Assembly: GCA_034190545.1 (NCBI GenBank)
Contig: JAXIOF010000097.1
Span: 1 to 42,426, forward strand
Reading direction: 5' to 3'
Source of the DNA: Candidatus Afararchaeum irisae
Lineage (GTDB): Archaea; Halobacteriota; Halobacteria; Halobacteriales; Afararchaeaceae
DNA length: 42,426 nucleotides
How positions within the stretch are numbered: the stretch's first letter is position 1; every line of letters begins with the position of its first letter. Position numbers and translations under genes: made by a program. Under the pieces are notes generated by a model. That model did no database searches, was not told the DNA's origin, and was given only the letters and a program-made list of their open reading frames with translations. This document shows positions 4,757 through 19,489 of this stretch, one piece after another.

Positions 4757-5362
4757 TCACGGCATCTCGCTCGCCTGTGACTGGGACTCCGACTCGCTCA
4801 TCACGCTTATCATACGGTCTACGTCGATGAGGACAATCAGGCTCACCTCCTCCTCCAACTCCTCCGTCTCCTCCTCGTTCTCCTCCGCGGCTCTTATCTC
4901 GTCCTCGTTTTCGAGCTCACGTATTATGCCCTTCACCATCTTCTCCTCTATGCCGTGGGTCTGTATGTCCCTGAGCTGTCCGTTCATGTCGACGCGGTCG
5001 GTCGTGTAGTCCCTGACCTCTATGACCTCGTCGACACGTATCCCGACCTTCTGTTTGTCGTCGTCCCTGTCGAGTACGAGTATCTCGTAGCTGTCGTCGT
5101 CGCGCGTCTCGACGTTGAGGAGCTTCGCGGGGTCTATTATCGCGGTCGTCTCACCTCTCAGGTCGACTATGCCGTCGACTGCGTCTGGAGCCCTCGGGAG
5201 ACGTGTGACCTTCTTCGACTCCATGTCGACTATGCTGCTGACCTTGTCTATTCCGAGTGCGTAGGTCTCGTCTCCCATCAGGAACTTGACCACGTTTATC
5301 TCGTCGGCGTCGCTTGAGGCGTGTGACCCTGTTCTCGTCTTAGAACCTGTCCTAGCTGCCAT
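4757..5362 (-). CDS. cheW: Chemotaxis adaptor CheW (first copy)
   Basis: CheW couples transducers to the CheA kinase. The start is set at the ATG of MAARTGSKTRTGS (201 residues), because an AGGAG lies just upstream and the upstream in-frame extension runs into the promoter. The core follows CheW: VVKFLMGDETYALGIDKVSSIVD, then TRLPRAPDAVDGIVDLRGETTAIIDPAKLL, then GIRVDEVIEVRDY. Before the last strand (SLIVLIDVDRMI) there is an acidic insertion of about 25 residues (ENEDEIRAAEENEEETEELEEE), and the tail is Ser/Gln-rich. The gene diverges from the HEAT-repeat gene across a short shared promoter region. It is the only che gene here on the minus strand and differs clearly from the second CheW at 7662. 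Confidence 0.9.
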   Translation of the reverse strand: MAARTGSKTRTGSHASSDADEINVVKFLMGDETYALGIDKVSSIVDMESKKVTRLPRAPDAVDGIVDLRGETTAIIDPAKLLNVETRDDDSYEILVLDRDDDKQKVGIRVDEVIEVRDYTTDRVDMNGQLRDIQTHGIEEKMVKGIIRELENEDEIRAAEENEEETEELEEEVSLIVLIDVDRMISVMSESESQSQASEMP

Positions 5363-5407
5363 TACTCCTATATATCCGCGTGTCCATAATAAAGTAAGGG
5401 ACAAGAG

Positions 5408-5454: not shown

Positions 5455-6681
5455 ATGTCCGAAACTACTCTGTATAATCTCGAAAAGGACGGAGACGTCG
5501 AGGGTCTGATCTCCTACATAAAGGAGAGTTCGAACCCGGCGGTCAGGGCACGTGCCGCCGAGATACTCAGCGACGTCGACGCTGACGGCGATCTTCAGGA
5601 GAGGAAGTTCGAGACTCTCATAGACGCTTCTCTCGACGACGAGGACGAGAGGGTACGCAAAGCCGCGGCGGAGTCGCTCGCGTGGTCCGACGACGTCAAC
5701 GTTGTCAAGCTACTCATAGACAGATACAGAGGCAACTCGGACACCCAACTCTCCGAGACTGCCGACTGGACTCTCGTCAAGCTACTCACCGACGCACTCG
5801 AAGACGGGGCTGCGGTTATAAGGATGGACGCCGCCCTTGGACTCGGACGTATAGGCGACGACAGGGCTTTCGAGCCACTCGTCGACGCCTTAGACGATCC
5901 CGACCCACAGGTCAGGGAGAACGCCGCATGGAGCCTCGGTGAGCTAGGCGACGAGAGGGCTGTAAAGCCGCTCACTAAGCTACTCACCGACTCGAACCAG
6001 GAGGTTCGGAAGCAGGCGGCGACGGCTATAACAGACCTCGGGGGCGAGATGGCTGTCGACTCACTCATAGACGCACTCGAAGACGACTACACCTACGTCC
6101 GGAAGCAGGCGGCGTTCGCTCTCGGAACCGTAGGAGGCGAGAGGGTCATAGAACCCCTCCTTGACGCACTCGAAGACGAGGATCTGACTGTGAGGGAGAG
6201 TGCGGCGTTCTCACTCATAGAGGTGATGTCGAACGCCCCCGCAGACAAGAGCCACGAGATACGTGAGACCGTCTCGTCACGTCTCGAAGACCTAGAATCC
6301 GAGGTAAGCACACAGCCCATAATCTCGGCGCTCGAACAGGCTACTGAGAAGCCCATAAGACGTAACGCGGCGTGGCTCCTCGGACGTGTCGGCGGAAGCG
6401 AGGCTGTCGAGCCCCTCGTGTCGGCGCTCGACGACGACGAACAGGTTAGACGGTTTGCGGCTACGAGCCTCGCCGAGATAGGCGAGCACGCGGTCGACGA
6501 TCTGATAGAGTCGCTCGACCACAAGAACCCCGAGGTCAGGAAGATGGCGGCGTTCGCGCTCGGAAAGATAGGTGACAAACGCGCTCTGGGTCCTCTCAAC
6601 GAGGTGATAGAGGATGAGGACGAGGAGGTTCGTAAGTTCGTGTTCCGCGCGGTTAACAAGCTCGGAGGTCAGGTAGAGTGA
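5455..6681 (+). CDS. HEAT/PBS-lyase repeat protein of the taxis system
   Basis: A 408-residue protein made almost wholly of HEAT-like repeats of about 31 residues. Examples are DAALGLGRIGDDRAFEPLVDAL, AWSLGELGDERAVKPLTKLL, AFALGTVGGERVIEPLLDAL, AWLLGRVGGSEAVEPLVSAL and AFALGKIGDKRALGPLNEVI. It is acidic with no membrane segment. In Halobacterium salinarum a HEAT-repeat protein (OE2401F) is encoded beside two CheF proteins and works with them between CheY and the archaellum. The same arrangement here suggests this is its counterpart, probably a scaffold. The ATG at 5455 is preferred to the TTG at 5431, which precedes the predicted transcript start. Its TGA overlaps the cheF1 GTG start (GTGA), so the two are probably translationally coupled. 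The link to OE2401F rests on context and fold, not on an alignment. Confidence 0.85.
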   Translation: MSETTLYNLEKDGDVEGLISYIKESSNPAVRARAAEILSDVDADGDLQERKFETLIDASLDDEDERVRKAAAESLAWSDDVNVVKLLIDRYRGNSDTQLSETADWTLVKLLTDALEDGAAVIRMDAALGLGRIGDDRAFEPLVDALDDPDPQVRENAAWSLGELGDERAVKPLTKLLTDSNQEVRKQAATAITDLGGEMAVDSLIDALEDDYTYVRKQAAFALGTVGGERVIEPLLDALEDEDLTVRESAAFSLIEVMSNAPADKSHEIRETVSSRLEDLESEVSTQPIISALEQATEKPIRRNAAWLLGRVGGSEAVEPLVSALDDDEQVRRFAATSLAEIGEHAVDDLIESLDHKNPEVRKMAAFALGKIGDKRALGPLNEVIEDEDEEVRKFVFRAVNKLGGQVE

Positions 6682-7574
6682 GCAAGTCAGAGAAGAAAGT
6701 CGCAGACATAACCGGCAAGTTCATACATCCTCTCATACGCGGCTCGACACAGCGTAAGGACGCCTCTTGGACCAACGGACGCATAATACTCTCGAACAAG
6801 AACATCTGGCTCATAACCAGCGATAAGAAGCAGAAGGTTCCCCTGGAGTCACTCAAGAAGATAGGTGAGAGCTTCGACCTCAACCAGTCGATAGTCAGGA
6901 CGACCAACTACGTCAGCCTCGTCTATGAGCGCGAGGGCGAGAGACACGTCTCACTCGTGACTAGCTCGAACGAAGACAGCCTCTCCGAGCTACGTGACTC
7001 GCTCTACAACGTTCTCCTCAACGGAACCATTGTCTACCTCAAACATCCCGTCAAGAGAGGCGGTGTCATACAGGACACGGCTGACTGGCAGAAGGCACAG
7101 GCAGCCCTTTCGAGCGAGTCGGTTCGTTTTGCGACTGAGGACGGCGACATAATCAAGGTCGAACTCGACGAGGTACAGAACATAGAGGCTGAGGAGAAGA
7201 CGATAAAGGGAGACAGGAGGAAGGTACTCGTCGTCGAACACGCCGAGTCAGACGGAACGACCGTTGTCTCACACATCTATGCACCTCCGCGTGAGATCAG
7301 TGCTCTCAAGGGATTTATAGGCGCGGAGTTCGAGGAGGAGGTCGAGTCCGACATAGAGCTCAGCGACAGGGACAGACAGGTTCTCACAGCACTCTACTCG
7401 GGAGTCTCGCCGTTCGACATACCCGACTTCATAGGAGCCGACGTCGACGAGGTCGAGGAGATTTACGAGGAACTCATAGAGCTGGGTGTACTCAACGAGG
7501 TCAGGAAGAGACGTGAGGTCACACTCACTACACGTGGACGTAATCTCGCCTCGAAGTCGATAGGAGAGGACTGA
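6678..7574 (+). CDS. cheF: CheF, taxis-archaellum adaptor (paralog 1)
   Basis: CheF is archaeal; it binds phosphorylated CheY and the ArlC/D/E platform, passing the taxis signal to the motor (established in haloarchaea). This 298-residue protein has the CheF opening SEKKVADITGKFI, the strand NGRIILSNKNIWLIT, the central YNVLLNGTIVYLKHPVKRGGVI, and a C-terminal winged-helix-like part (SDRDRQVLTALYSGVSPFDIPDFIG ... TTRGRNLASKS). GTG start overlaps the HEAT gene stop by four bases; GGAGGT and AGGT lie upstream. It is clearly paralogous to the CheF at 8156, which has the same layout. Which partner each copy prefers cannot be inferred. Confidence 0.9.
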   Translation: MSKSEKKVADITGKFIHPLIRGSTQRKDASWTNGRIILSNKNIWLITSDKKQKVPLESLKKIGESFDLNQSIVRTTNYVSLVYEREGERHVSLVTSSNEDSLSELRDSLYNVLLNGTIVYLKHPVKRGGVIQDTADWQKAQAALSSESVRFATEDGDIIKVELDEVQNIEAEEKTIKGDRRKVLVVEHAESDGTTVVSHIYAPPREISALKGFIGAEFEEEVESDIELSDRDRQVLTALYSGVSPFDIPDFIGADVDEVEEIYEELIELGVLNEVRKRREVTLTTRGRNLASKSIGED

Positions 7575-7616
7575 CGTGCGTTTGATTTATGTTGCATCCG
7601 TGTCTACGGTGTTACA

Positions 7617-7661
7617 ATGAGGTTCAGAGGGTCACGACAGCCACGAAGGGGGTCTGAGTAG
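7617..7661 (+). CDS. Possible 14-codon leader ORF before cheW2
   Basis: An ATG at 7617 opens a 14-codon frame encoding a basic peptide (MRFRGSRQPRRGSE). Its TAG stop at 7659-7661 is directly followed by, and in frame with, the cheW2 ATG at 7662. A TATA-like TTTGATTTATG about 30 bp upstream would make it leaderless. It could be a leader peptide that couples translation to cheW2, or chance. No coding statistics are possible at this length. Confidence 0.25.
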   Translation: MRFRGSRQPRRGSE

Positions 7662-8090
7662 ATGTCGACGCAGGCTCAGTCACAGGTTCTGGAGTTCGAC
7701 CTCGGATCTAAGAAGTACTGTGTCGACATCACGGAGGTCTCGGAGATAATAGACAAGGGAAGCCTGACTCCTATTCCCAACTCGGCTCCTCACGTCGAGG
7801 GTGTCATGGATCTACGTGGACAGACTACCAAGATAATAAATCCGAAGAAGGTTCTCGGAATCGAGGGAGGAGACGAGAAACGTATAATTGTCTTTGACGG
7901 ATCGGGGTCTGAGTCTGGAACCGACGAAACCCAGACCGACCTCTCGGGCTGGCTAGTAGACGAGGTTCACGAGGTCATAAAGGTCTCGGAGGACGACCTC
8001 GACGAGTCTGTCGGCGACGACAACGTCAAGGGCGTCATAAGAGACGACGGCGACTTCGTTATCTGGATAGAGCCCTCCGGCATAAACTGA
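7662..8090 (+). CDS. cheW: Chemotaxis adaptor CheW (second copy)
   Basis: A compact 142-residue CheW: VLEFDLGSKKYCVDITEVSEIID, then TPIPNSAPHVEGVMDLRGQTTKIINPKKVLG, then GWLVDEVHEVIKVSEDDL, ending VIWIEPSGIN. It lacks the acidic insertion of the other copy. ATG start follows GGGGGT and a stop codon of a 14-codon upstream frame. It sits between the two cheF genes, giving the order HEAT-cheF-cheW-cheF. Two CheW proteins are common in haloarchaea, where one is often needed for transducer arrays. Here position suggests, but does not prove, a closer tie of this copy to the CheF/CheY output side. Confidence 0.9.
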   Translation: MSTQAQSQVLEFDLGSKKYCVDITEVSEIIDKGSLTPIPNSAPHVEGVMDLRGQTTKIINPKKVLGIEGGDEKRIIVFDGSGSESGTDETQTDLSGWLVDEVHEVIKVSEDDLDESVGDDNVKGVIRDDGDFVIWIEPSGIN

Positions 8091-8115
8091 GACAGTGACC
8101 CGAGACGAGCAAAAA

Positions 8116-8125
8116 ATGTTAAATA
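8116..8125 (+). promoter_or_regulatory. TATA-like box for cheF2
   Basis: TGTTAAATAC lies 31-40 bp before the cheF2 ATG at 8156, placing transcription start near 8147 with a very short leader. The 8091-8155 spacer otherwise shows nothing beyond an 11-codon frame overlapping this box. Confidence 0.45.
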
Positions 8126-8155
8126 CAAACACGGGGAAATACGACTTATAGACAG

Positions 8156-9055
8156 ATGGACAGCGGAGAGAAGAAGCTCGCTGACTTCATGGGCGAGTAC
8201 GTGGCTGGCTCCGAGCTCAATAACACGAATCTTGAGTTTGAGAAGGCACGTATTCTCCTGAGTAACAGACGTCTCGTAGTCGCTGGGAAAGACGACAGGA
8301 CTACTGTCCCACTCAAGTCGGTTCTAGACGTCGGGAAGAGTAACCTTCCCCCGAGCGTCCAGGACTACATGTCGAACGCCATCTCAGTCGGCTACAAGTC
8401 GAAGAAAGACGGGAGACAGCGGTCTGTGATAGTGCGTGGCGACGAGGAGAGGCTCGAGAAGCTACGTGACCTACTCTACAAGGCTATACTCAACTCCGCC
8501 GAGGTATACATACAGCATCCCGCGAAGGTCAGCGGACGTGTCATGGGAGCCGACTGGAAGAAGTCGAAGATAGTCGTCAAGAGGGACTCTATAAAGGCGA
8601 AGGGTGTCACCGAGATAGACCTCACGACCGTACAGGACGCCGAGATATCCGAGAGGGAGATAAAGGGGAGTAAGAAGACCGTCATAGGAATACGTCACAC
8701 GACCGACAGGGGAATAGTCACGACACGTATCTATGTCCCCGACAGGAGACATCTCAACATACTCGGACGTTATCTCAGGAAGGAGTACCAGGAGATAGTC
8801 AAGGAGGTCGAGGACATATCCCTCTCGGAGTCGGAGAAACGCATAATCGTCGCGCTCTTCTCGGGGGCTACGGAGGATCAGCTTCCGATGGTTCTCGAGG
8901 AGGAGGCGAGCGAGGTGAGGAGACTCGTAAACGGTCTCATTGATAAGGAGATACTCATGGAGTCGGACGACGGACTCGAACTCACGAGCAAAGGTAAGGT
9001 CTTCTCGAACAGAAACATAGAGGAGGTCAACGCAGGCGCGGGCTCCTCAGTCTAA
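8156..9055 (+). CDS. cheF: CheF, taxis-archaellum adaptor (paralog 2)
   Basis: A 299-residue CheF with the same plan as the copy at 6678: EKKLADFMGEYV, then KARILLSNRRLVVAGKD, then LRDLLYKAILNSAEVYIQHP, then SKKTVIGIRHTTDRGIV. The C-terminal winged-helix-like region is LSESEKRIIVALFSGATEDQL ... LTSKGKVFS. The two are too divergent to be a recent duplication. A TATA-like box lies just upstream, so it may be transcribed separately from cheW2. Paired CheF paralogs occur in Halobacterium; in Haloferax CheF is essential for directional switching. ATG start. Confidence 0.9.
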   Translation: MDSGEKKLADFMGEYVAGSELNNTNLEFEKARILLSNRRLVVAGKDDRTTVPLKSVLDVGKSNLPPSVQDYMSNAISVGYKSKKDGRQRSVIVRGDEERLEKLRDLLYKAILNSAEVYIQHPAKVSGRVMGADWKKSKIVVKRDSIKAKGVTEIDLTTVQDAEISEREIKGSKKTVIGIRHTTDRGIVTTRIYVPDRRHLNILGRYLRKEYQEIVKEVEDISLSESEKRIIVALFSGATEDQLPMVLEEEASEVRRLVNGLIDKEILMESDDGLELTSKGKVFSNRNIEEVNAGAGSSV

Positions 9056-9084: not shown

Positions 9085-9210
9085 ATGATTCCGAACTACT
9101 ACATCCAGACGCAGACGCAGACGCAGACGCAGACTCAGACTCAGACTCAGATGCGTAGAAGAGACAGACTCACAGACACGTATGCCGAACCTCCAAGGGG
9201 GGACTACTAA
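9085..9210 (+). CDS. Candidate 41-residue Gln-Thr repeat small protein or leader, coupled to cheY
   Basis: The ATG at 9085 is nine bases after GAGGTGA (9069-9075), a seven-base match to the complement of the archaeal 16S 3' end and the strongest ribosome-binding site in this spacer. The frame encodes MIPNYYI, then seven Gln-Thr dipeptides, then a basic and charged tail (MRRRDRLTDTYAEPPRGDY). The TAA stop at 9208-9210 overlaps the cheY ATG (TAATG). No family is recognised. It may be a real microprotein, or a translated leader that sets cheY expression. The site and the overlap are seen; expression is inferred. The repeat could also make the frame fortuitous. Confidence 0.42.
   Translation: MIPNYYIQTQTQTQTQTQTQTQMRRRDRLTDTYAEPPRGDY
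9106..9150 (+). repeat. Hexanucleotide tandem repeat before cheY
   Basis: About seven and a half copies of the hexamer CAGAC(G/T). The first copies end in G and the later ones in T. It is entirely inside the 41-codon frame, where it encodes Gln-Thr pairs, so copy-number change would stay in frame. Such tracts are prone to slippage. Confidence 0.9.
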
Positions 9211-9566
9211 TGGCAAACGAAGTAATGGTCGTCGACGACTCGGAGTTCATGCGGAACCTCCTCAAGCAGATACTCGAAGACGAGTTTGAGATAGTCGGTG
9301 AGGCGGAGAACGGAGTCGAGGCTGTCGAGATGTACGAGGAGAAGAAGCCAGACCTCGTTATGATGGACATAGTCATGCCTATACGTGACGGCATAGAGGC
9401 GACAGCCGAGATAAAGGACAAAAACCCCGATGCTAACGTCATAATGTGTACGAGTGTCGGACAGGAGGAGAAGATGAGGAAAGCCGTCGAGGCGGGCGCC
9501 GACGGCTATATCACGAAGCCGTTCCAGAAGCCGAGTGTGATGGAAGCCATAGACGACGTCGTCTGA
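9210..9566 (+). CDS. cheY: Response regulator CheY
   Basis: A 118-residue single receiver domain. The acidic pocket is VMVVDDS (D9, D10), the phosphoacceptor is D53 (DLVMMDIVMP), the conserved hydroxyl position is T81 (IMCTSVG), and the conserved Lys is K103 (YITKPFQKP). When phosphorylated by CheA it signals through CheF to the archaellum switch. The ATG overlaps the stop of the upstream 41-codon frame, with a G-rich run before it. CheB follows after seven bases. Length and motifs match stand-alone archaeal CheY. Confidence 0.96.
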   Translation: MANEVMVVDDSEFMRNLLKQILEDEFEIVGEAENGVEAVEMYEEKKPDLVMMDIVMPIRDGIEATAEIKDKNPDANVIMCTSVGQEEKMRKAVEAGADGYITKPFQKPSVMEAIDDVV

Positions 9567-9573
9567 TCGTCTA

Positions 9574-10659
9574 ATGACAGACCTACGCGCGGTAGTCGTC
9601 GACGACTCCCAGTTCATGAGGACGGTGATCTCCGACATACTTGAGGACTCGGGGATAGACGTCGTCGCCAAGGCTAGTGACGGCGAGAAAGGCGTCGAGT
9701 CTGTCACCTCGGAGAAGCCCGACGTCGTCACGATGGACGTCCAGATGCCGCGGATGGGCGGAATAGAGGCTGTCGAGAAGATAATGGAGGAGGAGCCGAC
9801 ACCTGTTCTGATGCTGAGTGCCTACACAGAGGAGGGAGCCGACGCCACCTTCGAGGCTCTCGACAAGGGAGCGGTCGACTTCCTCCAGAAGCCCGGGGGC
9901 GAGGTCTCTATGGACATACAGGATCTGCGTGACAGCCTAGTCGAGAAGGTTAGGACTGTAGCCGAGGCAGACGTCGGGAGACAGACACAAAAGACCACCT
10001 CCCGATCTACTTCCACATCCACGTCCACATCCGCGACCGCGTCGCAGAGACGTCCAGAGACACGCGAGGAGTACGTCGACAGCCCCACGGTAGTCATAGG
10101 AGCATCGACTGGGGGTCCGAGCGTCCTCGAAGACGTCGTCTCACATCTCCCCGTCGAGGCAGAGATGCGTCTCCTAATAGTCCAGCATATGCCCGACGAG
10201 TTCACCCGACGTTTCGCGGAACGTCTCGACTCTGTCACGGAGTACTCGATACGTGAGGCTCAAGACGGAGACAGGATAGGCGGCGGAGAGGGTCTCGTCG
10301 CCAAGGGCGACTACCACATGGAGGTCTCGGGATACTCGGGAGGACGTCTGCGTGTGCGTCTCAACCAGGAGCCCAAGATACATGGTGTAAGACCCGCTAT
10401 AGACGTAACAATGGAGACGGCGTCCGATAGGATCTCCGACAGACTCGTAGGAGTCGTCCTGACCGGTATGGGAAAGGACGGTGCCGAGGGGATAAGGTCT
10501 ATAAAGGAAGCAGGAGGACATACGATAGCTCAGGACGAGGAGACCTCGAAGGTCTTCGGAATTCCGGCGAGAGCGATAGAGACGGGATGTGTCGACGACG
10601 TTCTACCCATAGACGAGGTTGCTCAGGGGATAAGAAGACGGATAACGACAGATAGATGA
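9574..10659 (+). CDS. cheB: Protein-glutamate methylesterase/deamidase CheB
   Basis: Removes methyl groups from, and deamidates, transducer glutamyl sites for adaptation. Residues 1-125 are a receiver with D10/D11 and phosphoacceptor D55 (VVTMDVQMP). A Ser/Thr-rich linker (about 139-158) is encoded by imperfect TCCAC(A/G) hexamers. Residues 172-358 are the methylesterase, with catalytic Ser178 (IGASTGGP), His205 (VQHMPDEF) and Asp302 (TGMGKDGAEGI). ATG start lies seven bases after cheY. The protein is complete at 361 residues. Confidence 0.96.
   Translation: MTDLRAVVVDDSQFMRTVISDILEDSGIDVVAKASDGEKGVESVTSEKPDVVTMDVQMPRMGGIEAVEKIMEEEPTPVLMLSAYTEEGADATFEALDKGAVDFLQKPGGEVSMDIQDLRDSLVEKVRTVAEADVGRQTQKTTSRSTSTSTSTSATASQRRPETREEYVDSPTVVIGASTGGPSVLEDVVSHLPVEAEMRLLIVQHMPDEFTRRFAERLDSVTEYSIREAQDGDRIGGGEGLVAKGDYHMEVSGYSGGRLRVRLNQEPKIHGVRPAIDVTMETASDRISDRLVGVVLTGMGKDGAEGIRSIKEAGGHTIAQDEETSKVFGIPARAIETGCVDDVLPIDEVAQGIRRRITTDR
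10012..10035 (+). repeat. Imperfect hexamer repeat in the CheB linker
   Basis: Four near copies of TCCAC(A/G), the last TCCGCG, encode the Ser-Thr linker between the receiver and the esterase domain. This is one of several short hexamer tracts in the window. Confidence 0.75.
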
Positions 10660-10696: not shown

Positions 10697-12775
10697 ATGG
10701 ACGACTACCTAAAGGACTTCATACGTGAGAGCGAGGAACAGATAACAGAGCTCAACAACGCTCTCCTCGAACTCGAAAGCGATCCCGGGAATGAGGAGGC
10801 GATGGACTCTATATTCCGTATCGCCCACACTCTAAAGGGCAACTTCGGGGCGATGGGGTTCAACGACGCGAGCGACCTCGCCCACGCAGTCGAGGATCTC
10901 CTTGACGAGATGCGCCAGGGGGAGATAGAGGTCACCCCCGACGTGATGGACACTGTCTTCGACGGCGTCGACGAGATAGAGGCTCTCCTCGACGAGATAG
11001 CCGACGACGGTAATACCTCGACAGACCCGACCGACTCTATCGAGGAGATACGTGGCGTGATAGAAGACGAGGAGTCGGAGTCCGACGGTGACGAGACTCA
11101 GGCTACCGCGACCCAAGAGGGCGGTGACGACGAAACAGACACAGATACGGATCCAGATGCTGACTCGGGCGCAGACGTAGACCTCGATGAGGCTCTCGGT
11201 TCGGAGTCGGTCGACGTCTCACATATCCGTGATGCCGAAGAGGTCGTCTACGCCGAGGTCAGTACGAAGGCGGGAGAGATGAAAGGCGTCGATGCTATGC
11301 TTGCCCTCGACGAGATTGACGGAATCACAGAGATACTTGAGACAACACCCGAGACAGACGAGATACAGGAGGGCAGCTTCGACGAGAGCTTCGGCGTCTT
11401 CGTGACCCCCGTCGACGACGTCTCGGGGACACGTGAAGAGATAGAATCGATAGGCAAGGTCGAGTCGGTCGGTGTCGTAGAAGTCCCCGACAGCCTCGAA
11501 GAGGGAGCCGAAGAAGAAGACGAAGCAGAGACCGAGTCACCCGACGACTCCGACTCTTCGTCCGAGACGGAGACGACAGAAGAGACCTCAAGCGGCTCCG
11601 ACGACAAAGACAGTTCGAAGACGAAGACCGAGTCGGTCGATGAGGTACAGTCGATACGTGTCGACGTCGACCAGCTCGACAAGCTTCTCAACCGTGTCGA
11701 GGAGCTAGTCACTAGCCGTATAAAGCTCAGACGTGCTGTCGAACACGACGAGCTTGAGGACGCCGAGGACGAGCTAGACGAACTCGACAAGATCTCGTCG
11801 AGCCTCCAGGACACTGTGATGGACATACGTCTCGTCCCTCTTGAGAAGATAGTCGGCAAGTTCCCGCGTCTCGTGCGTGACCTCGCGCGGTCACAGGACA
11901 AGGAGATAAACCTCGTTATGGAGGGGAAGGACATAGAGCTCGACAGAACCGTCCTCAACGAGATAGGCGACCCTCTGATGCATCTCATACGTAACGCAGT
12001 AGACCACGGAATAGAGTCTCCCGAGGTGCGTGAGGAGAAGGGGAAGCCGCGTGAGGGAACCGTCTACCTCCGTGGTGAGAGGGAACGCGACCGGGTCACT
12101 ATAGAGATAGAGGACGACGGACGCGGTCTCGACAAGGAGGCTATAAAGTCGAAGGCTGTCGACGAAGGGATAATGACGCGTGACGAGGTTGAGGCTCTCG
12201 ACGAGTCGGAGGTATACGAGCTCATCTTCCACTCGGGGTTCTCGACCACCGACGAGGTCACCGAGGTCAGCGGACGCGGCGTCGGAATGGACGTCGTGAG
12301 CAACACGATAAGAAGCCTCGACGGCTCCCTCGAAGTCGAGAGCGAACCCGACGAGGGCACCCTCGTCCGTCTCACACTCCCCGTCACAGTCGCTATAGTC
12401 AAGGTACTCCTCGTTGAGACGGGCGACGAGGAGTACGGAATACCCGTTAAGAACGTCGAGGAGATCGGCAGGATGGATGACGTACGTACAGTCGAAGGGG
12501 AGGAGGTCACTGTCCACGACGACCAGGTCTACTCTCTCGTCCGTCTCGGTGACGCACTCGACGTTCCCGCAGAGACGAAGAACGGCGACGGAATGCTCGT
12601 ACGCATAAAGGACTCGGTAAGACAGATCACCGTACACTGCGACTCGGTGTTAGGACAGGAGGAGGTCGTCGTGAAGCCGTTCGAGGGAATTCTGAGCGGA
12701 ATCCCCGGGATGAGCGGTGCCGCAGTCCTCGGAGAGGGCGATGTCGTCACCATACTCGACGTCGAGACACTCTGA
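10697..12775 (+). CDS. cheA: Chemotaxis histidine kinase CheA
   Basis: The 692-residue kinase autophosphorylates and passes phosphate to CheY and CheB. P1 (HPt) has phosphoacceptor His44 in RIAHTLKGNFGAMG. After an acidic linker, P2 (about 176-265, VDVSHIRDAEEVVYAEV ... VESVGVVEV) binds the regulators. A second acidic Ser/Thr linker leads to the P3 dimer helices (IRVDVDQLDKLLNRVEELV). The P4 ATPase has an N box (LIRNAVDHGIESPE), a G1 box (DDGRGLDKEAI) and a G2 box (GRGVGMDVVS). P5, the CheW-like domain, closes the protein. ATG start follows AGGAGGT about ten bases upstream, one of the best ribosome-binding sites in the cluster. All catalytic boxes are intact. Confidence 0.96.
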   Translation: MDDYLKDFIRESEEQITELNNALLELESDPGNEEAMDSIFRIAHTLKGNFGAMGFNDASDLAHAVEDLLDEMRQGEIEVTPDVMDTVFDGVDEIEALLDEIADDGNTSTDPTDSIEEIRGVIEDEESESDGDETQATATQEGGDDETDTDTDPDADSGADVDLDEALGSESVDVSHIRDAEEVVYAEVSTKAGEMKGVDAMLALDEIDGITEILETTPETDEIQEGSFDESFGVFVTPVDDVSGTREEIESIGKVESVGVVEVPDSLEEGAEEEDEAETESPDDSDSSSETETTEETSSGSDDKDSSKTKTESVDEVQSIRVDVDQLDKLLNRVEELVTSRIKLRRAVEHDELEDAEDELDELDKISSSLQDTVMDIRLVPLEKIVGKFPRLVRDLARSQDKEINLVMEGKDIELDRTVLNEIGDPLMHLIRNAVDHGIESPEVREEKGKPREGTVYLRGERERDRVTIEIEDDGRGLDKEAIKSKAVDEGIMTRDEVEALDESEVYELIFHSGFSTTDEVTEVSGRGVGMDVVSNTIRSLDGSLEVESEPDEGTLVRLTLPVTVAIVKVLLVETGDEEYGIPVKNVEEIGRMDDVRTVEGEEVTVHDDQVYSLVRLGDALDVPAETKNGDGMLVRIKDSVRQITVHCDSVLGQEEVVVKPFEGILSGIPGMSGAAVLGEGDVVTILDVETL

Positions 12776-12807: not shown

Positions 12808-13404
12808 ATGAGCCTGATGATAGACATAAGGAAGCTGAGTACCTTCAACCGGATGGCGAAGGAGGGAGCCAACACCGTAGCCGACCATCTCAGTCAGATG
12901 ACGGGAACTGAGACGAGGATGGAGATTACGAAGATCAACTTCGTCGAGACCGACGACCTCCAGAGACACGTCGGAGACGACACTGAGGTCGGCATAAACA
13001 TACAGCTCACTGAACCGCCGTACGGATACGTCCTGATGCTCTTCACTGAGACGAGCGCGAAGAACATAGCCGACCTCATGATGGGTGGAATGGGAGGCGG
13101 AGACCACGACGGCTTCAGCGAGATGGAGATGAGTGCAGTCCAGGAGATAGGCAACATAATGACGAGCGGATTCATCGACGGCTGGGCGAACGTCTTAGAC
13201 ACCACGATAGACATGACTACACCCGAGTTCTCACACAAGCCCGCCGCCGAGATAGTCGACTCTCTCGTGGGCGACAGGGACGACGAGATAGCGATGGTAT
13301 TCGACTCGCACATATACGCTCCCGACGCCGACGTCGAGGCTAAGATCTACTGCTTCCCCGAGCTAGAGGAGCTAGTCGAGATGATGAACTCGTTAGAGGT
13401 GTGA
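12808..13404 (+). CDS. cheC: CheC-family phosphatase, single domain
   Basis: CheC proteins dephosphorylate CheY-P and partner with CheD. This 198-residue copy has the opening STFNRMAKEGANTVADHLSQ, the strand VEITKINFV-like region, and one active-site helix SAVQEIGNIMTSGFIDGWANVL (the E-x-x-N pattern). The second E-x-x-N helix of classical CheC is not evident, so it may have one site per chain. The 12776-12807 spacer is A/C-rich without a clear ribosome-binding site. It is the first of three CheC units in a row, the next two being fused in the following gene. Confidence 0.9.
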   Translation: MSLMIDIRKLSTFNRMAKEGANTVADHLSQMTGTETRMEITKINFVETDDLQRHVGDDTEVGINIQLTEPPYGYVLMLFTETSAKNIADLMMGGMGGGDHDGFSEMEMSAVQEIGNIMTSGFIDGWANVLDTTIDMTTPEFSHKPAAEIVDSLVGDRDDEIAMVFDSHIYAPDADVEAKIYCFPELEELVEMMNSLEV

Positions 13405-13408
13405 CTCG

Positions 13409-14695
13409 GTGAAGGTAGACGTAGACTCTCTTGGAACCTTCAACCGGATGGCAAACGAGGGTGCCGAGACAGCGGCGAGGTCGCTGTCACAGATGACGGG
13501 GATAGAGACACTTGTAGACGTTACCAAGATAAACTTCATTCCGACTTCCGAACTCGGTGAGTCGCCGGTAGAGCCCCCGGGCTCCGACTCCGAAACGGCT
13601 TCCGAAGAAACCGACTACGTCGGAGTACGTATAGCCCTCGAAGGCGTCCCGAGCGGTGACATGGTGGTTCTGTTCGAGAGGGACTCAGTCTCACACGTCG
13701 TTGAGCTACTCACAGGAGCCTCCGCGGATGAACTCGACGAGATGGGACGAAGCGCAGTCCAGGAGGTCGGAAATATAATCACGAGTAGCTTCATCGACGG
13801 CTGGGCGGACGTCCTCGGCACTACGATAGACATATCCACTCCCGACCTCGTAGACGGAAGCCGTTCAGAGGTCTTCTCCGACGTCATCGACAGCTACGAC
13901 GACGAGTACGCCGTCTTCTTCGAGAGCGAGATAGACTCGCCCGAGACGACTGACACCGACATAGGCTTCGGCGTCTACATGTTTCCCGAACAGAACTCGA
14001 TGGAGGAGGCGGCGTCGCTCGTCGGCGGCGACCGGAGCATAGACACTAGCCAGCTTGTGACCTTCAACCGGATGACACGTCTCGGAGCCGACCGGGTCTC
14101 GGATCACATGACACAGATGACAGGGATCGACACCGACGTCGAGGTTACCTACGTCAACTTCGTGAGGCTCGAAGACGTCCCGAGCGAGGTCGAGGAGGGA
14201 CGGAAGGTTGGCTTGGTCTTCGAGTTCGAGGGCTTCCTCGGGGGTTACATACTCATACTCCTCGACGACGAGTCGGCGAAGGAGATCACGAGGCTTCTTC
14301 TCCCGTCCGCCGCTGAGAACGACAACGACACCGATGTCGGCGACGACGGCTTCGACCCCACTGAGAGAAGCGCTATACAGGAGATGGGCAACATAATGAC
14401 GAGCGGCTTCGTCGACGCGTGGGCGAACGTCCTAGACGCGACGATAGATATCTCGACTCCCAAGTTCGTCCACGACATGGGACGTGCTATAGCCGACTCG
14501 ATCACCGCACGTCTCGGACAGAGACAGAAGTACTCGTTCGTATTCGACACGAGGATCAACGCCCAGGATCACGAGTTCGACTGTGAGGTCTATATGCTTC
14601 CGTACCAGGACGGCTTCGAGGAGACACTCCAGAGTCTCAACATCGAGGAGGTCGACAGATCCGAGATAGAGCCCGACGACAGCCAGATGATATAG
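13409..14695 (+). CDS. cheC: Two-domain CheC-family protein
   Basis: A 428-residue protein made of two fused CheC units. Unit 1 (about 1-205) has FNRMANEGAETAARSLSQMTG and the active-site helix SAVQEVGNIITSSFIDGWADVL. Unit 2 (about 212-410) has FNRMTRLGADRVSDHMTQMTG and SAIQEMGNIMTSGFVDAWANVL. Both keep E-x-x-N. Each closely echoes the single-domain gene upstream, so all three arose by duplication. Unit 1 has an acidic loop (GSDSETASEETD) absent from the others. GTG start lies four bases after the previous stop, with GAGGTGTGA upstream. A fused pair could act as a built-in CheC dimer. Some haloarchaea have long CheC proteins, so the fusion is not necessarily unique. Confidence 0.88.
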   Translation: MKVDVDSLGTFNRMANEGAETAARSLSQMTGIETLVDVTKINFIPTSELGESPVEPPGSDSETASEETDYVGVRIALEGVPSGDMVVLFERDSVSHVVELLTGASADELDEMGRSAVQEVGNIITSSFIDGWADVLGTTIDISTPDLVDGSRSEVFSDVIDSYDDEYAVFFESEIDSPETTDTDIGFGVYMFPEQNSMEEAASLVGGDRSIDTSQLVTFNRMTRLGADRVSDHMTQMTGIDTDVEVTYVNFVRLEDVPSEVEEGRKVGLVFEFEGFLGGYILILLDDESAKEITRLLLPSAAENDNDTDVGDDGFDPTERSAIQEMGNIMTSGFVDAWANVLDATIDISTPKFVHDMGRAIADSITARLGQRQKYSFVFDTRINAQDHEFDCEVYMLPYQDGFEETLQSLNIEEVDRSEIEPDDSQMI

Positions 14696-14697
14696 AG

Positions 14698-15258
14698 ATG
14701 AAGGTATACGGACGAGACGACTCCCCGCTCGACGACGAAGACGAGTCCTCGGCTACGGGTGAGACTTTCGAGAAGACTGACGCCTCGAAATCCACAGTCA
14801 AGGTCGGAATAGCCGACTACGCAGTTACCGACTCGGGCGACTTGCTGACTACGAACGGACTGGGTTCGTGTGTGGGTGTCGCTGTGAGATCGAAAGACAG
14901 CTCTGTCTCGGGTCTAGCCCATGTCATGCTGCCGTCGTCGGAGGAGGTCGACGACGAAAATGAGGCGAAGTTCGCCGACACAGCCATACAGGCGATGGTC
15001 GACGAGATGAGACGCAAGGGAGCCTCTATCGGCGACATGACTGCGAAGATAGCCGGCGGGAGTAGTATGTTCGACTTCTCGGGCGACGAGAGCATAGGCG
15101 AGAGAAACGTCGCCGCAGTGAGACGGAAGCTTGACAGCCTCGGAATACCTATCGAGTCGGAAGACGTCGGGGGTGACTCGGGGAGGTCGATAGAGTTCGA
15201 CCCCGAGACGGGTGGCTTAACTATAAAGAACGCAAACAGAGAGGTGAAGGAGATTTGA
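14698..15258 (+). CDS. cheD: Chemoreceptor glutamine deamidase CheD
   Basis: Deamidates transducer Gln residues and is controlled by CheC. The catalytic triad is visible: Cys58 in TTNGLGSCVGV, His75 in SGLAHVMLPS and Thr52. GGSSMF, FDFSGDESIGERN and the closing strands match the family. The 186-residue protein has an N-terminal acidic stretch of about 30 residues (after MKVYGRDDSP). MKVY openings are usual in haloarchaeal CheD, so the ATG is kept. It starts two bases after the cheC stop and its TGA overlaps the cheR TTG. Confidence 0.94.
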   Translation: MKVYGRDDSPLDDEDESSATGETFEKTDASKSTVKVGIADYAVTDSGDLLTTNGLGSCVGVAVRSKDSSVSGLAHVMLPSSEEVDDENEAKFADTAIQAMVDEMRRKGASIGDMTAKIAGGSSMFDFSGDESIGERNVAAVRRKLDSLGIPIESEDVGGDSGRSIEFDPETGGLTIKNANREVKEI

Positions 15259-16103
15259 ACACAGACAAGACCGCCAAAGACGGAGAACCGGAGGAAGAGA
15301 GCTTCGACGAGATACTCGGCTTCGTGGAGGATGAGATGGGCTTTGCCACGAGCCATTACGAGACGAGCTACCTCGACAGACGTATATCTTCGAGGATGAG
15401 ACGCACGGGTTCTGAGAGCTACGCCGACTACCTCGAAGTCCTCAGAGCCGAGGAAGACGAGAGAGCGGCTCTTCTCGACGCTCTCAGCGTAAACGTCACG
15501 AGCTTCTTCCGCAACCCCGAAGTCTGGGAGAAGATACGTGAGATTCTGAGAGATATCACCGACGACCGCAGGTCGGTCAAGCTCTGGAGCGCGGCGTCGT
15601 CCGACGGCAGAGAGGCGTACTCGATGGCGATGCTCTCGCTCAAAGACCACGAGATAGACGCCTCTAAGATCTCTATTAAGGCAACCGACATAGACGCCGA
15701 GATAATCAAGACTGCGAAGAAGGGGGTCTACGAGACCACGAAGACCGAGGACATCTCCGAACAGCTTTGTCCTCTCGACGACTACAGTCAGTACATAGAC
15801 AGAGATGGCGACTCGTTCGAGGTTACAGACGAGGTCAAGGAGATGGTGAGCTTCGAACAGCACGACCTCATAAACGGACGCCCCAAGTCGGGGTTCGACC
15901 TCGTCGCGTGCCGTAACCTCTTCATCTACATTGACTCCGAGTACAAGGTTCCTATACTCACGACGATAAGGGACTCACTCGTCGACGACGGCTACCTCGT
16001 CATAGGAAAGACCGAGTCGCTACCGTCGGATCTCAAGAACGACTTCGAGTCGGTCAACAGCAGACTACGTGTCTACCGTAAGTCGACTTATACTGAAGGA
16101 TAA
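15255..16103 (+). CDS. cheR: Chemotaxis methyltransferase CheR
   Basis: S-adenosylmethionine-dependent methylation of transducer Glu residues, opposing CheB. The 282-residue protein has the N-terminal all-helical part with YLDRRISSRMRRTG, the marker SVNVTSFFRNPEVW, the SAM-binding loop KLWSAASSDGREAYSMAM, the acidic KATDIDAEI, and the late motif FDLVACRNLFIYI. The loop SAASSDGREAYS stands where bacterial enzymes have a C-x-T-G-E-E-P-Y-S form, a change common in archaea. It starts at TTG overlapping the cheD stop (TTGA), preceded by GAGGTGAAGGAG. It ends the che run; arlCE follows after 162 bp. Confidence 0.93.
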   Translation: MNTDKTAKDGEPEEESFDEILGFVEDEMGFATSHYETSYLDRRISSRMRRTGSESYADYLEVLRAEEDERAALLDALSVNVTSFFRNPEVWEKIREILRDITDDRRSVKLWSAASSDGREAYSMAMLSLKDHEIDASKISIKATDIDAEIIKTAKKGVYETTKTEDISEQLCPLDDYSQYIDRDGDSFEVTDEVKEMVSFEQHDLINGRPKSGFDLVACRNLFIYIDSEYKVPILTTIRDSLVDDGYLVIGKTESLPSDLKNDFESVNSRLRVYRKSTYTEG

Positions 16104-16265: not shown

Positions 16266-17798
16266 ATGTCATCTGTAGATGAGATAGCACAGCGTATACG
16301 CGGAATGATCTCCGACGGCGAGGAGTCCGAGGACTCTGCTGAGGAGAGCGGTGACGACTTCATGGACGACGACATGGGAGATGATGACCTCTTCGGGGAC
16401 GAAGGCGGCGAGGCGGACGACGACGACTTCGGCTCACTCGACGACGGATTCGGAGACGAGGGTGACGAGAGGATTACGGAGCTAGAAAACCGCGTCGACG
16501 ACCTCGAAAACGAGGTCGGGAGCATCTCATCTACGGTCTCGACAGTCAGAAGCGAGAACGAGTCGATAAGCGAGAGCGTCGAGGAGGTCGAGGAGAACGT
16601 CAGAAAGCTTCTCGACATATACGAGATGGTGACACGTGGAGTCAACCCGTTCGTCGACGAGGCAGGCGGAATGGGGGAGGGAATCGCAGCCGAGGGTGAC
16701 GGAGGATTCGGACTCTTCGGGGGCGACGACGACGAAAACGACGAGATCGACGAGGAGCTAGCCGATAAGGACGCCGACTACTTCTTCGAGGAGGACTTCG
16801 AGGATCTCGAAGACGACGATGCTATGGGGATGGGTATGGAGGAGGAGTCAGACGACTTCGACGACGAGATGGCTGGCATCGACGACGACATGGGAATGAT
16901 GGAGGAAGACATGAGCATGGACGAAGGAGGCGAGTTCGAGGACGACATGATGATGGAGACCGACGACGAGATGGGCATGGGGATGGAGGAAGAACAGGAG
17001 CCCGAGGACAAGTTCGAGGAGATGAAACAGGAGTTCGAGGAGGAGTCTCAGGAAGACGAAGAAGATCTCGAAGCTGAGGAGGAAGAACAGGAGCCTGAGG
17101 ACAAGTTCGAGGAGATGAAACAGGAGTTCGAGGAGGAGTCTCAGGAAGACGAGGTCGAGGCTCTCGAAGAGGCTGAGATAGAGACGTCTGAGACCGAAAC
17201 TCAGGCTGAGACAGATACGGAGACAGAAGACGAGGAGGCTGTTGAGGCGGTTAAGGATGAGACGGAGACGGAAACAGAAGCCGGAGCCTCTACACATACA
17301 CAGTCGGCTGCCTCTTCCCCCGACACCGAGTACTACCTCGAAAGCCTTTCGAAGAACTACGTCTCCGACATCGTCGCCATGAACTGGGTCGACTTCCTCG
17401 TCTGGCGCGTCGGAATCGTAGGTTTCCAGGACACACTCGACTTCTACGTCGACATAGGCTGGATATCCCCGGGAGTGAGGGATCACCTCTCGAAGTACAC
17501 ACGTGCTCTCTCGACTTCGAAACGCCGTCAGTCCGAACGCGACGAATCCCAGACAGCTACTCGGGAGTACGACGTCAAGACGAGACACGGTGACAGCATG
17601 GAGGTCGAAGTCGAAGCCGACGACACGCTCAGCGTCGAGGATCACGTCAGATCGCTCCTCTTCATATCGAAGCTCTCACAGCTCGATGTCTCCGACGGAT
17701 CGAACGGAAGCCTTGAGGGCGACGACCTCTCGGGCGACGTAGACGACATAGAGGAAGAGGTAGAGGAGATTCTAAAGTTACAGAAGTATGGGCTTTAG
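16266..17798 (+). CDS. arlCE: Archaellum switch protein ArlCE (fused ArlC and ArlD/E-like)
   Basis: In haloarchaea ArlC and ArlE are one protein that forms the cytosolic ring receiving CheF. This 510-residue version begins with an ArlC-like part: acidic Asp/Gly/Met stretch, then coiled coil (about 66-120, RITELENRVDDLENEVGSI) and KLLDIYEMVTRGVNPF. A very acidic, Met-rich linker (about 150-350) follows. The ArlD/E domain (about 354-425) has YLESLSKNYVSDIVAMNWVDFLVWRVG and ends GWISPGVRDHLSKY, followed by a C-terminal extension. Inside the linker a 75-bp unit is duplicated with a 93-bp period. No separate arlD is present here. The last codons overlap arlF by 11 bases. Confidence 0.92.
   Translation: MSSVDEIAQRIRGMISDGEESEDSAEESGDDFMDDDMGDDDLFGDEGGEADDDDFGSLDDGFGDEGDERITELENRVDDLENEVGSISSTVSTVRSENESISESVEEVEENVRKLLDIYEMVTRGVNPFVDEAGGMGEGIAAEGDGGFGLFGGDDDENDEIDEELADKDADYFFEEDFEDLEDDDAMGMGMEEESDDFDDEMAGIDDDMGMMEEDMSMDEGGEFEDDMMMETDDEMGMGMEEEQEPEDKFEEMKQEFEEESQEDEEDLEAEEEEQEPEDKFEEMKQEFEEESQEDEVEALEEAEIETSETETQAETDTETEDEEAVEAVKDETETETEAGASTHTQSAASSPDTEYYLESLSKNYVSDIVAMNWVDFLVWRVGIVGFQDTLDFYVDIGWISPGVRDHLSKYTRALSTSKRRQSERDESQTATREYDVKTRHGDSMEVEVEADDTLSVEDHVRSLLFISKLSQLDVSDGSNGSLEGDDLSGDVDDIEEEVEEILKLQKYGL
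16985..17152 (+). repeat. Near-perfect direct repeat within arlCE
   Basis: A 75-bp unit at 16985-17059 recurs at 17078-17152 (period 93 bp, 31 codons). I see one mismatch (CCCGAG versus CCTGAG, synonymous). It encodes EEEQEPEDKFEEMKQEF plus EEESQEDE in each copy. The near identity points to recent duplication or continuing conversion in the acidic linker. Confidence 0.92.
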
Positions 17799-18228
17799 TG
17801 TATCAGCCTCAACCGCGATAATCTTCATAGGAGTCTTAATTGCCGCTAACTCGGTCTACGGCGCGTGGTCCTACTCACAGAAGCAGCTTGAGACTGCACG
17901 TGACGACGAGGCACACGACTTACTCGAAAAGCGTCAGACTTCGGTCGAGATAGTCGCGACATCTTACTCCTCGACCACCGACACCTTGACAGTCAACGCC
18001 TCGAACACCGGGGAGACGTCTCTCTCGGCTTCGGAGACTACGGCTATAGTAGACGGGGAGTTCGCTCCGAAGGAGACCGTGACTGTCAAAAACTCCTTCG
18101 GGAACGAGAAGAACAGTAAACTGTGGCTCCCGGGCGACTACCTCGTTGTCAACGTCACGTCGCCGACTAGCCCTAATAGAGTAAAGCTGACTGCCGAGAA
18201 CGGTTTCGGCGATGTCGAGGTGAGATAG
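17788..18228 (+). CDS. arlF: Archaellum stator protein ArlF
   Basis: A 146-residue protein with one N-terminal membrane helix (STAIIFIGVLIAANSVYGAWSY) and an extracellular beta-sandwich domain (TDTLTVNASNTGETSL ... WLPGDYLVVNVTSP). ArlF and ArlG form the stator complex that binds the S-layer. MGFSVSAST is the usual opening. The ATG is inside the end of arlCE (11-base overlap), and arlG begins directly after the stop, so the set is one transcript. Confidence 0.92.
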   Translation: MGFSVSASTAIIFIGVLIAANSVYGAWSYSQKQLETARDDEAHDLLEKRQTSVEIVATSYSSTTDTLTVNASNTGETSLSASETTAIVDGEFAPKETVTVKNSFGNEKNSKLWLPGDYLVVNVTSPTSPNRVKLTAENGFGDVEVR

Positions 18229-18693
18229 ATGGCGAGTACGAGCATAGACACCATGATAATATTCATCGCCTCGATGCTCGTCGCTGTCTCTGTCTCAGCT
18301 GTCTTCACGACGGAGGTTCAGTCGATGGCGGACGCTTCGAGGGACTCAGCCGAGGATCTCTCGGAGAAGATACGGAGTGACATAACCATAATAAACGACC
18401 GTACCAACGTTCCCTACGACGACACCGACGGCGACGGAACCAACGACAGTCTCGTCTTCTACGTCAAGAACACGGGCTCGTCGACGTCTCCCGTCGACCC
18501 GGATCTGTTCACAGTCCTTATAGACGGTCAGTTCGAAGACGTGAGTAGCGTCAGCTTAATTCAGGGGTCGGGAAGCTGGAGTCCCGGAGAAGTCGTCAGG
18601 CTCAATGTCTCGGCTAAGGGACTCTCAGGAGACCACACCGTCAAGATCGACTCCAGGTCTTCGAGCGACACCATAGATATAAGACTCGGATAA
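18229..18693 (+). CDS. arlG: Archaellum stator protein ArlG
   Basis: A 154-residue protein with an N-terminal membrane helix (TMIIFIASMLVAVSVSAVF) and a beta-sandwich domain (SLVFYVKNTGSSTSPVDPDLFTV). It pairs with ArlF outside the cell membrane. An Asp-rich loop, YDDTDGDGTNDS (about 64-75), resembles a calcium-binding thrombospondin type 3 loop. Such a loop would suit a salt-exposed stator but is an inference. ATG immediately follows the arlF stop, and GAGGTGA lies five to eleven bases upstream. Confidence 0.92.
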   Translation: MASTSIDTMIIFIASMLVAVSVSAVFTTEVQSMADASRDSAEDLSEKIRSDITIINDRTNVPYDDTDGDGTNDSLVFYVKNTGSSTSPVDPDLFTVLIDGQFEDVSSVSLIQGSGSWSPGEVVRLNVSAKGLSGDHTVKIDSRSSSDTIDIRLG

Positions 18694-18702
18694 ACTAAAA
18701 CC

Positions 18703-19431
18703 ATGCCAGGTAGCAAGCTTTACGACATAGGTCTTGAAGACCGCGACCGTCTCAAGGAGAACCTCGGCGGAGGGGTTCCGAAGGGCTCCATAGTCGTGAT
18801 AGAGGGCGAGTACAGTGCGGGAAAGAGTGCCCTTTCACAGAGATTCACCTACGGCTTCTGCCGTGAGGGATACACGACGACTCTCCTTTCGAGCGAGCTT
18901 ACTGTCAAGGGATTCATCGACCAGATGCACTCTCTCGGCTACGACATAGAGGAGTACCTCCTCAACGAACAGCTTCTCTTCCTCCACGCCTATGTCGACC
19001 AGCAGAACGAGGATCAGGATCTCCTCTCGCGTCTCATGAACGCCGACACTATGTGGCAGAGTGACATAGTCATAATCGACACATTCGACGCGATACTCAG
19101 AAACGACGGAACCTTCGACAGCCTCGTGAGACAGAACGAGGAGCGTCAGGGCGCTCTCGAAATAATCTCTTTCTTCAGGGACGTAATCGGAAACGGGAAG
19201 ACGATAATACTCACTATCGATCCCACTACACTCAACGAGGAGGTCATGTCACCCTTCCGTGCTATAGCCGACGTACATCTCGAACTCGAGATGACCGAGA
19301 TAGGAAACGAGACGAGCCGTTCGATAGTCGTCAACAGGTTCTCGGGAATGGGAGAACAGGTCGGAGACATGATTGGATACGGAGTCCGTCCCGACATAGG
19401 TATAGTCATAGAGTCGAGAAGCGTCGCATAG
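18703..19431 (+). CDS. arlH: Archaellum motor ATP-binding protein ArlH
   Basis: A KaiC/RecA-fold protein of 242 residues that binds ATP, docks on ArlI and joins it to the ArlCE ring. The Walker A loop is [14 protein letters not shown] (about 34-47). The Walker B strand is [13 protein letters not shown] (about 122-134). The C-terminus ([38 protein letters not shown]) matches the family. ArlH is thought to be a regulatory switch more than a strong ATPase. ATG start lies nine bases after arlG. Confidence 0.94.
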
Positions 19432-19451
19432 ACCCCGACTCTGACAGCCGT

Positions 19452-19480
19452 AAAGCTAAATAAACTCAGTTATTTAAATA
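19452..19480 (+). promoter_or_regulatory. Candidate internal promoter before arlI
   Basis: The 58-bp arlH-arlI spacer is AT-rich and has two TATA-like tracts, CTAAATAAAC (about 19455-19464) and TTTAAATATA (19473-19482). The first is 26-35 bp before the arlI ATG, fitting a near-leaderless transcript for arlI-arlJ. It breaks the tight gene overlap seen elsewhere in the operon. Confidence 0.45.
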
Positions 19481-19489
19481 TACAAAAGG

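Follow-up and report, generated by a model that had tools for sequence, protein, structure and literature searches.

The window analysed here is the whole 42,426-nt contig C97 (JAXIOF010000097.1) of the 1.9-Mb haloarchaeal genome of Candidatus Afararchaeum irisae (117 contigs, 98.9% complete). Ahead of further chemotaxis (che) and archaellum (arl) genes, it encodes a HEAT-repeat protein (hereafter HEAT), the adaptors CheF1 and CheF2, and a CheW. HEAT and the two CheF proteins probably belong to a haloarchaeal switch-coupling module with a HEAT–CheF1 core, in which CheF2 would be linked to the CheC/CheD feedback arm as a reader that has degenerated. The module has been known since 2009 and the role of HEAT is not a blank; the window holds this known module in a new, compact arrangement. 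What is new here is the genome-wide pattern of HEAT and CheF, the CheF-bearing genomes that have no HEAT, the joint loss of CheF2 with CheD and CheC, the loss of a strand from CheF2, and the counts for the intervening cheW and the gene overlap.

In the mechanism that we propose, CheF1 would read phosphorylated CheY (CheY-P) via its C-terminal domain and dock by its pleckstrin homology (PH) domains on the ArlCDE ring. HEAT would be a helical scaffold acting with CheF1 so that bound CheY-P flips the motor; its part in switching has been shown by genetics in Halobacterium salinarum, and the mode of action is predicted. CheF2 would be an old paralogue in which the PH domains persist and the reading domain is short of one conserved strand, and it is probably the motor-side subunit of the CheC/CheD arm and not a second CheY-P adaptor. 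The cheW between the cheF genes would be an ordinary array adaptor placed there by the gene order of this lineage. For CheF in general, binding of CheY-P by the C-terminal domain as a dimer has been described, and the PH domains were proposed to dock on ArlCDE (PMC9126983).

The gene set, the coordinates, the start of HEAT and its 4-nt overlap with cheF1, as given by the initial annotation, were confirmed by open reading frames (ORFs), Pfam and orthologue alignment. HEAT (408 aa, 5455–6681, + strand; PF13646, E 5.6e-86) starts at ATG 5455 and not at TTG 5431, as its orthologues begin with MSLYxLE at that ATG. It is followed on the same strand by cheF1 (298 aa, 6678–7574; PF04283, E 1e-52), cheW (142 aa, 7662–8090; PF01584, E 6.5e-23) and cheF2 (299 aa, 8156–9055; PF04283, E 2.9e-53). 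The GTG start of cheF1 at 6678 falls in the region of the HEAT stop codon (TGA, 6679–6681), which produces the overlap. The genome has no CheF matches beyond these two proteins, which are 30% identical, and outside the cluster HEAT matches just one other frame, of 232 aa, and that weakly.

Functional data for HEAT and the two CheF proteins come from H. salinarum, where the HEAT protein OE2401F interacts with CheD and CheF1 by pull-down (Schlesner et al, 2009; PMC2666748). In the results reported there, 96–99% of cells rotated clockwise after HEAT deletion and 100% after CheF1 deletion, as compared with 51% after CheF2 deletion and 58% in the wild type. Strains deleted for HEAT or CheF1 gave no phototactic or chemotactic response, the CheF2 deletion was nearly wild type, and all deletion strains swam. 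The view that the role of HEAT is wholly open is thus outdated, since its deletion abolishes switching and that of CheF2 does not. In Haloferax volcanii, the major effect is that of cheF and not that of cheF2 (PMC6509185).

The link between HEAT and CheF1 that the annotation had drawn also holds across genomes. We searched 194 genomes of the order, with a requested completeness of at least 95%, using a HEAT profile built from 27 orthologues; orthologues in this sample scored 478–594 bits and everything else at most 379 bits. One genome (G355) was left out of the HEAT-positive count, which thereby fell from 109 to 108, as its sole match is a 311-bit paralogue that shows no linkage to the cheF of that genome. 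All 108 HEAT-bearing genomes carry CheF, 8 have CheF without HEAT, and 78 have neither. HEAT lies upstream of cheF1 in 107 of the 108: on the same strand and within 300 nt in 84, and at a separation of ~2.1–2.3 kb in 23. The single exception, G363, has a HEAT gene that adjoins no listed CheF. A detailed reading of 47 loci showed the 4-nt overlap at 18, of which 13 are from Natrialbaceae or family f8; the others have an 11-nt overlap (one locus), gaps of 0–174 nt or a 2.1–2.2-kb insertion. In the one such case checked, from family f17, HEAT and cheF1 are separated by a chemoreceptor gene with PAS and MCP signalling domains (L062:7035–8987). Because it is found in only 18 of 47 loci, the overlap is one arrangement among several for two closely spaced genes and not a rule, and it is weak evidence for the fixed protein ratio that it had been taken to suggest.

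The phyletic comparison proposed at the outset, for which a loss of HEAT unrelated to CheF was the refuting outcome, gave a divided answer: HEAT never occurs without CheF in the 194 genomes, and 8 of the 116 CheF-bearing genomes nevertheless have no HEAT orthologue, with CheF1 retained and no parallel change found in it. These eight fall into family f11 (G010, G025) and two genera of family f5, g31 (G192, G283, G355) and g38 (G228, G332, G335); a ninth, G037 (f11, 93% complete), lies outside the sample of 194. In g31 and g38, cheR stands within 10 nt of cheF1, at the place that HEAT takes in relatives, and the gene order (L097, L098, L101, L141–L144) is that reported for H. volcanii. We infer that g38 is Haloferax. 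A literature search, mostly without subscription papers, turned up no report of Haloferax being without HEAT. The two HEAT-less groups stand apart in the best CheF1 tree, although a single clade is not rejected (approximately unbiased test, p-AU 0.09); from these trees, HEAT would have been lost at least once, perhaps twice. Since eight CheF-bearing genomes lack it, HEAT can be bypassed, and as part of the best explanation it is rather likely to be a bypassable helper, since the Haloferax-like group and family f11 do without it and still keep both CheF proteins.

A second class of HEAT proteins (9 of the 194 genomes, mostly 294–379 bits against the che HEAT profile) was considered as a replacement and set aside: among the HEAT-less genomes only G355 has it, and at the 8 loci examined its gene does not lie beside che genes. 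At these loci (L145, L146, L148–L153, about 9–11 kb in each) the second-class gene has a neighbour of 272–301 aa, and both neighbours tested contain DUF7504. Nor do we claim that CheF2 evolved faster, or jointly, in the HEAT-less groups: the seven HEAT-less CheF2 sequences group at weak support (55/90), and long stems make this grouping unsafe.

The HEAT protein of the window is of the OE2401F type, that is, ~400–440 aa with HEAT repeats alone, encoded upstream of cheF1 and starting with an MSLYxLE motif, here in the variant MSETTLYNLE. Structure predictions, all of single chains, gave a HEAT model of 24 helices with a mean predicted local distance difference test (pLDDT) score of 92.5. A fold search with it returned generic HEAT, ARM and designed proteins only. 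Matches such as alphaRep, other HEAT-repeat proteins and the PP2A scaffold subunit have a helical solenoid in common with it; the resemblance is of the generic fold only, and no chemotaxis relative is among the matches listed. One alternative is that HEAT is no switch component at all and instead a chaperone or stabiliser made together with CheF1, the CheF1 of HEAT-less lineages folding unaided. This would account for the similarity of the HEAT and CheF1 deletions (PMC2666748), for the close or overlapping genes at most loci and for the loss of HEAT unaccompanied by change in CheF1 contact residues. We nevertheless regard it as unlikely: HEAT pulls down CheD as well (PMC2666748), and it is strongly conserved over its full length, with a distinct patch around residues 299–312. 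The helix 299–312 (RRNAAWLLGR) is the most conserved of all and, with the preceding conserved stretch 259–270 (SNAPxxxSHxxR), is a candidate contact site.

The two CheF proteins of the window belong to separate haloarchaeal types. In trees, cheF1 groups with the cluster-linked haloarchaeal CheF1 (clade support 99, and 100/100 in a second tree) and cheF2 with the second haloarchaeal CheF (clade support 99), in line with the 2009 description of CheF2 as a separate branch without the conserved residues (PMC2666748). Window CheF1 has two PH-like domains and a helical C-terminal domain, with the conserved GVSPFxIPxFLG motif and the RxRRE strand. Its best solved matches are CheF of Pyrococcus horikoshii (7ovp, E 4.2e-24) and the C-terminal domain of Methanococcus maripaludis CheF (7od9, E 4e-17); 7ovp is also the first Foldseek match of its model (pLDDT 84.3, E 1e-14). 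For M. maripaludis CheF, the measured affinity for CheY-P is 1.24 µM. As a side observation, family f4 (L054, L058, L081, L083) has extra CheF1-like paralogues off the che cluster, without HEAT; such paralogues were noted in 2009 for Haloarcula marismortui (PMC2666748).

We compared the paralogues in 31 genomes that carry both. Mean pairwise identity of the C-terminal domain is 65.8% in CheF1 versus 37.6% in CheF2, as against 50.2 and 45.1% for PH1 and 47.8 and 36.7% for PH2, so that conservation peaks in the C-terminal domain in CheF1 and does not do so in CheF2. R278 is present in 31/31 CheF1 and in 12/12 single CheF proteins of other archaea (outgroup) and in 0/31 CheF2; E280 is present in 30/31, 12/12 and 2/31, respectively; and the R276 column is deleted in all 31 CheF2. 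The stretch R276-R278-E280 aligns with the strand preceding the last helix in solved CheF, which forms the sheet of the dimer (PMC9126983). Because this conserved strand of the C-terminal domain is lost, CheF2 appears unable to read CheY-P as CheF1 does, a conclusion drawn from aligned sequences.

HEAT and CheF1 without CheF2 occur in four genomes from four families: G039, G280, G009 (92% complete) and G014 (76%). All four keep HEAT. Within a hand-chosen set of 21 genomes (every HEAT-less genome, nine in number, the full four that are CheF2-less, and eight more), CheD is absent in 4/4 CheF2-less genomes versus 0/17 others, and CheC in 3/4 versus 0/17. What remains in the pared-down clusters is thus HEAT, CheF1 and CheA, with CheF2, CheD and in most cases CheC gone. 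At the reduced locus of G280 (L160:5236–8480), a DUF7500 gene adjoins cheY, and no H-kinase_dim domain was detected in CheA.

The same pattern bears on the suggestion that HEAT is part of the CheD/adaptation arm and that its effect on switching runs through CheD. The HEAT–CheD interaction (PMC2666748; PMC3579733) speaks for it; yet the four CheD-less genomes all keep HEAT, and CheD, like CheC, is present in all nine HEAT-less genomes, which leaves this idea largely refuted and very improbable. A more credible, though still doubtful, alternative gives CheF2 the role of a weaker, additional CheY-P adaptor, or of the partner of CheF1 in a heterodimer that tunes the switch, its loss along with CheC and CheD being general decay. 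The weak phenotype of the CheF2 deletion and the CheY pull-down in H. salinarum (PMC2666748) fit it, as does the incompleteness of two of the four CheF2-less genomes, whereas the loss of the reading strand in 31/31 CheF2 and the lower conservation of its C-terminal domain do not. Taken as natural experiments, the loss of HEAT with CheF1 kept and the loss of CheF2 with HEAT kept favour a HEAT–CheF1 core, with CheF2 in another arm.

In its most specific form, the explanation would make CheF2 a CheF that no longer reads CheY-P and instead anchors the CheC/CheD arm, which is a CheY-P phosphatase, to the archaellum switch, with HEAT–CheF1 as the minimal core. With HEAT bypassed one or more times, the coupling of CheY-P to the motor would then differ between H. 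volcanii and H. salinarum. We offer this form tentatively, as one possibility.

Several observations weigh against the switch-coupling explanation. CheF2 was pulled down by CheY bait in H. salinarum (PMC2666748), which misfits a strict non-reader unless the contact goes via CheF1. The joint loss of CheF2, CheC and CheD could be mere general decay, since G014 and G009 are incomplete and the che loci of G280 and G039 are pared down. Single-CheF archaea retain CheC and CheD without CheF2. Distance correlation, moreover, fails to tell CheF1 from CheF2 as the partner of HEAT: across 20 genomes, whose pairs are non-independent, the mirror-tree partial r with HEAT is 0.67 for CheF1, 0.72 for CheF2, 0.62 for CheA, 0.06 for CheB and 0.07 for CheR. 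Finally, parallel CheF1 changes sought in both HEAT-less groups, at positions conserved in the HEAT-bearing groups, came to 0 columns in a test of low power, in which most control group pairs gave 0–3 columns and a few gave more (up to 14). The use of such changes as a map of the HEAT-binding face was dropped with this result.

The position of cheW between the cheF genes had been read as a hint of contact between the input array and the output adaptor. Among 28 cheF pairs lying within 9 kb, only that of the window has a cheW between its members, and the intervening cheW gives no sign of functional contact. With the window cheW as query, the genome yields a single further CheW match, at 4991–5302 (− strand), within the ORF 4757–5404, a second cheW divergent from HEAT. 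A single complex of the whole four-gene block, cheW included, joining the sensory array to the switch, as the initial annotation had it, has the gene order of the window in its favour; given the 1/28 count, and given that CheW1 is reported in receptor-kinase complexes and CheW2 in contact with receptors (PMC3579733), we consider it highly implausible.

According to the 2009 authors, HEAT genes occur in haloarchaeal che regions and are absent from those of other archaea (PMC2666748). Two genomes from another family of the phylum, G111 and G223, extend this range, which leaves the family membership of the window unaffected. In both, HEAT and cheF1 lie directly 3′ of arlJ, and a CheF2-type gene is found at another genomic site; the G111 HEAT orthologue upstream of cheF1 scores 448 bits, and mcrA was looked for in the pair and not found. 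In a quick tree without a mixture model, their ArlI branches just outside haloarchaea, and window ArlI is the first branch within the sampled haloarchaea (support 97); the sample of relatives holds no second genome from the window genome's own family. As G111 and G223 carry HEAT, CheF1 and CheF2, the module predates the sampled haloarchaea or moved between lineages. From outside haloarchaea and this pair we took 27 loci, 24 of which carry outgroup-clade CheF. Unlike the window, none of them has HEAT next to cheF (the upstream side is cut off in L122); a HEAT-like gene is found 6–9 kb from cheF in L108, L121, L123 and L126 (scores 190–252). A further genome, G075, which has mcrA, contains a CheF2-type gene and broken CheF pieces with no che genes nearby (L093:2349–3172, 17233–18108; L094:9467–10325), and its taxis system looks as if it were decaying.

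The window resembles the H. salinarum trio OE2401F-OE2402F-OE2404R (PMC2666748) in having HEAT directly 5′ of cheF1, a second, divergent cheF adjoining and a che cluster; loci of family f12 (L061, L064, L103, L104) show the strand order implied by the OE numbers. It differs in that all its genes lie on one strand, cheW stands between the cheF genes, and cheY-cheB-cheA-cheC-cheC-cheD-cheR-arlCE-F-G-H-I-J follow directly. H. volcanii likewise has the CheF1 and CheF2 types and an arl operon; its transcription units are given as CheB/A/R/F1 and Arl...J/CheF2 in a 2026 paper whose account, unlike the window, names no HEAT between cheR and cheF1 (PMC13286277).

The cluster of the window is operon-like, with every gene from HEAT onward on the + strand up to the end of arlJ at 22947. 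By Pfam, it comprises cheY (9210–9566), cheB (9574–10659), cheA (10697–12775), a cheC with one CheC domain (12808–13404), a cheC with two (13409–14695) and cheD (14698–15258; PF03975). The gene at 15255–16103, named cheR from its sequence, has a profile match, and arlCE, arlF, arlG, arlH, arlI and arlJ (16266–22947) are named after the archaellum operon. Immediately 5′ of cheY is a run of CAGACG/CAGACT hexamer-like repeats (9101–9151), and arlCE (16266–17798) encodes a strongly acidic linker with a near-exact tandem copy of ~30 residues (EEEQEPEDKFEEMKQEFEEESQEDE twice).

The HEAT phenotype comes from H. salinarum, and the in vivo work on CheF considered here comes from H. volcanii, for which the published gene order shows no HEAT gene at this site. 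Should HEAT be essential in the former and absent in the latter, a swap of HEAT and CheF1 would show the contribution of HEAT directly, and the question of what HEAT does becomes testable between two laboratory species. The reason for multiple CheF proteins was called unknown in a 2012 interaction paper (PMC3579733); the CheF2 result would offer a simple reason for keeping two, testable by binding assays.

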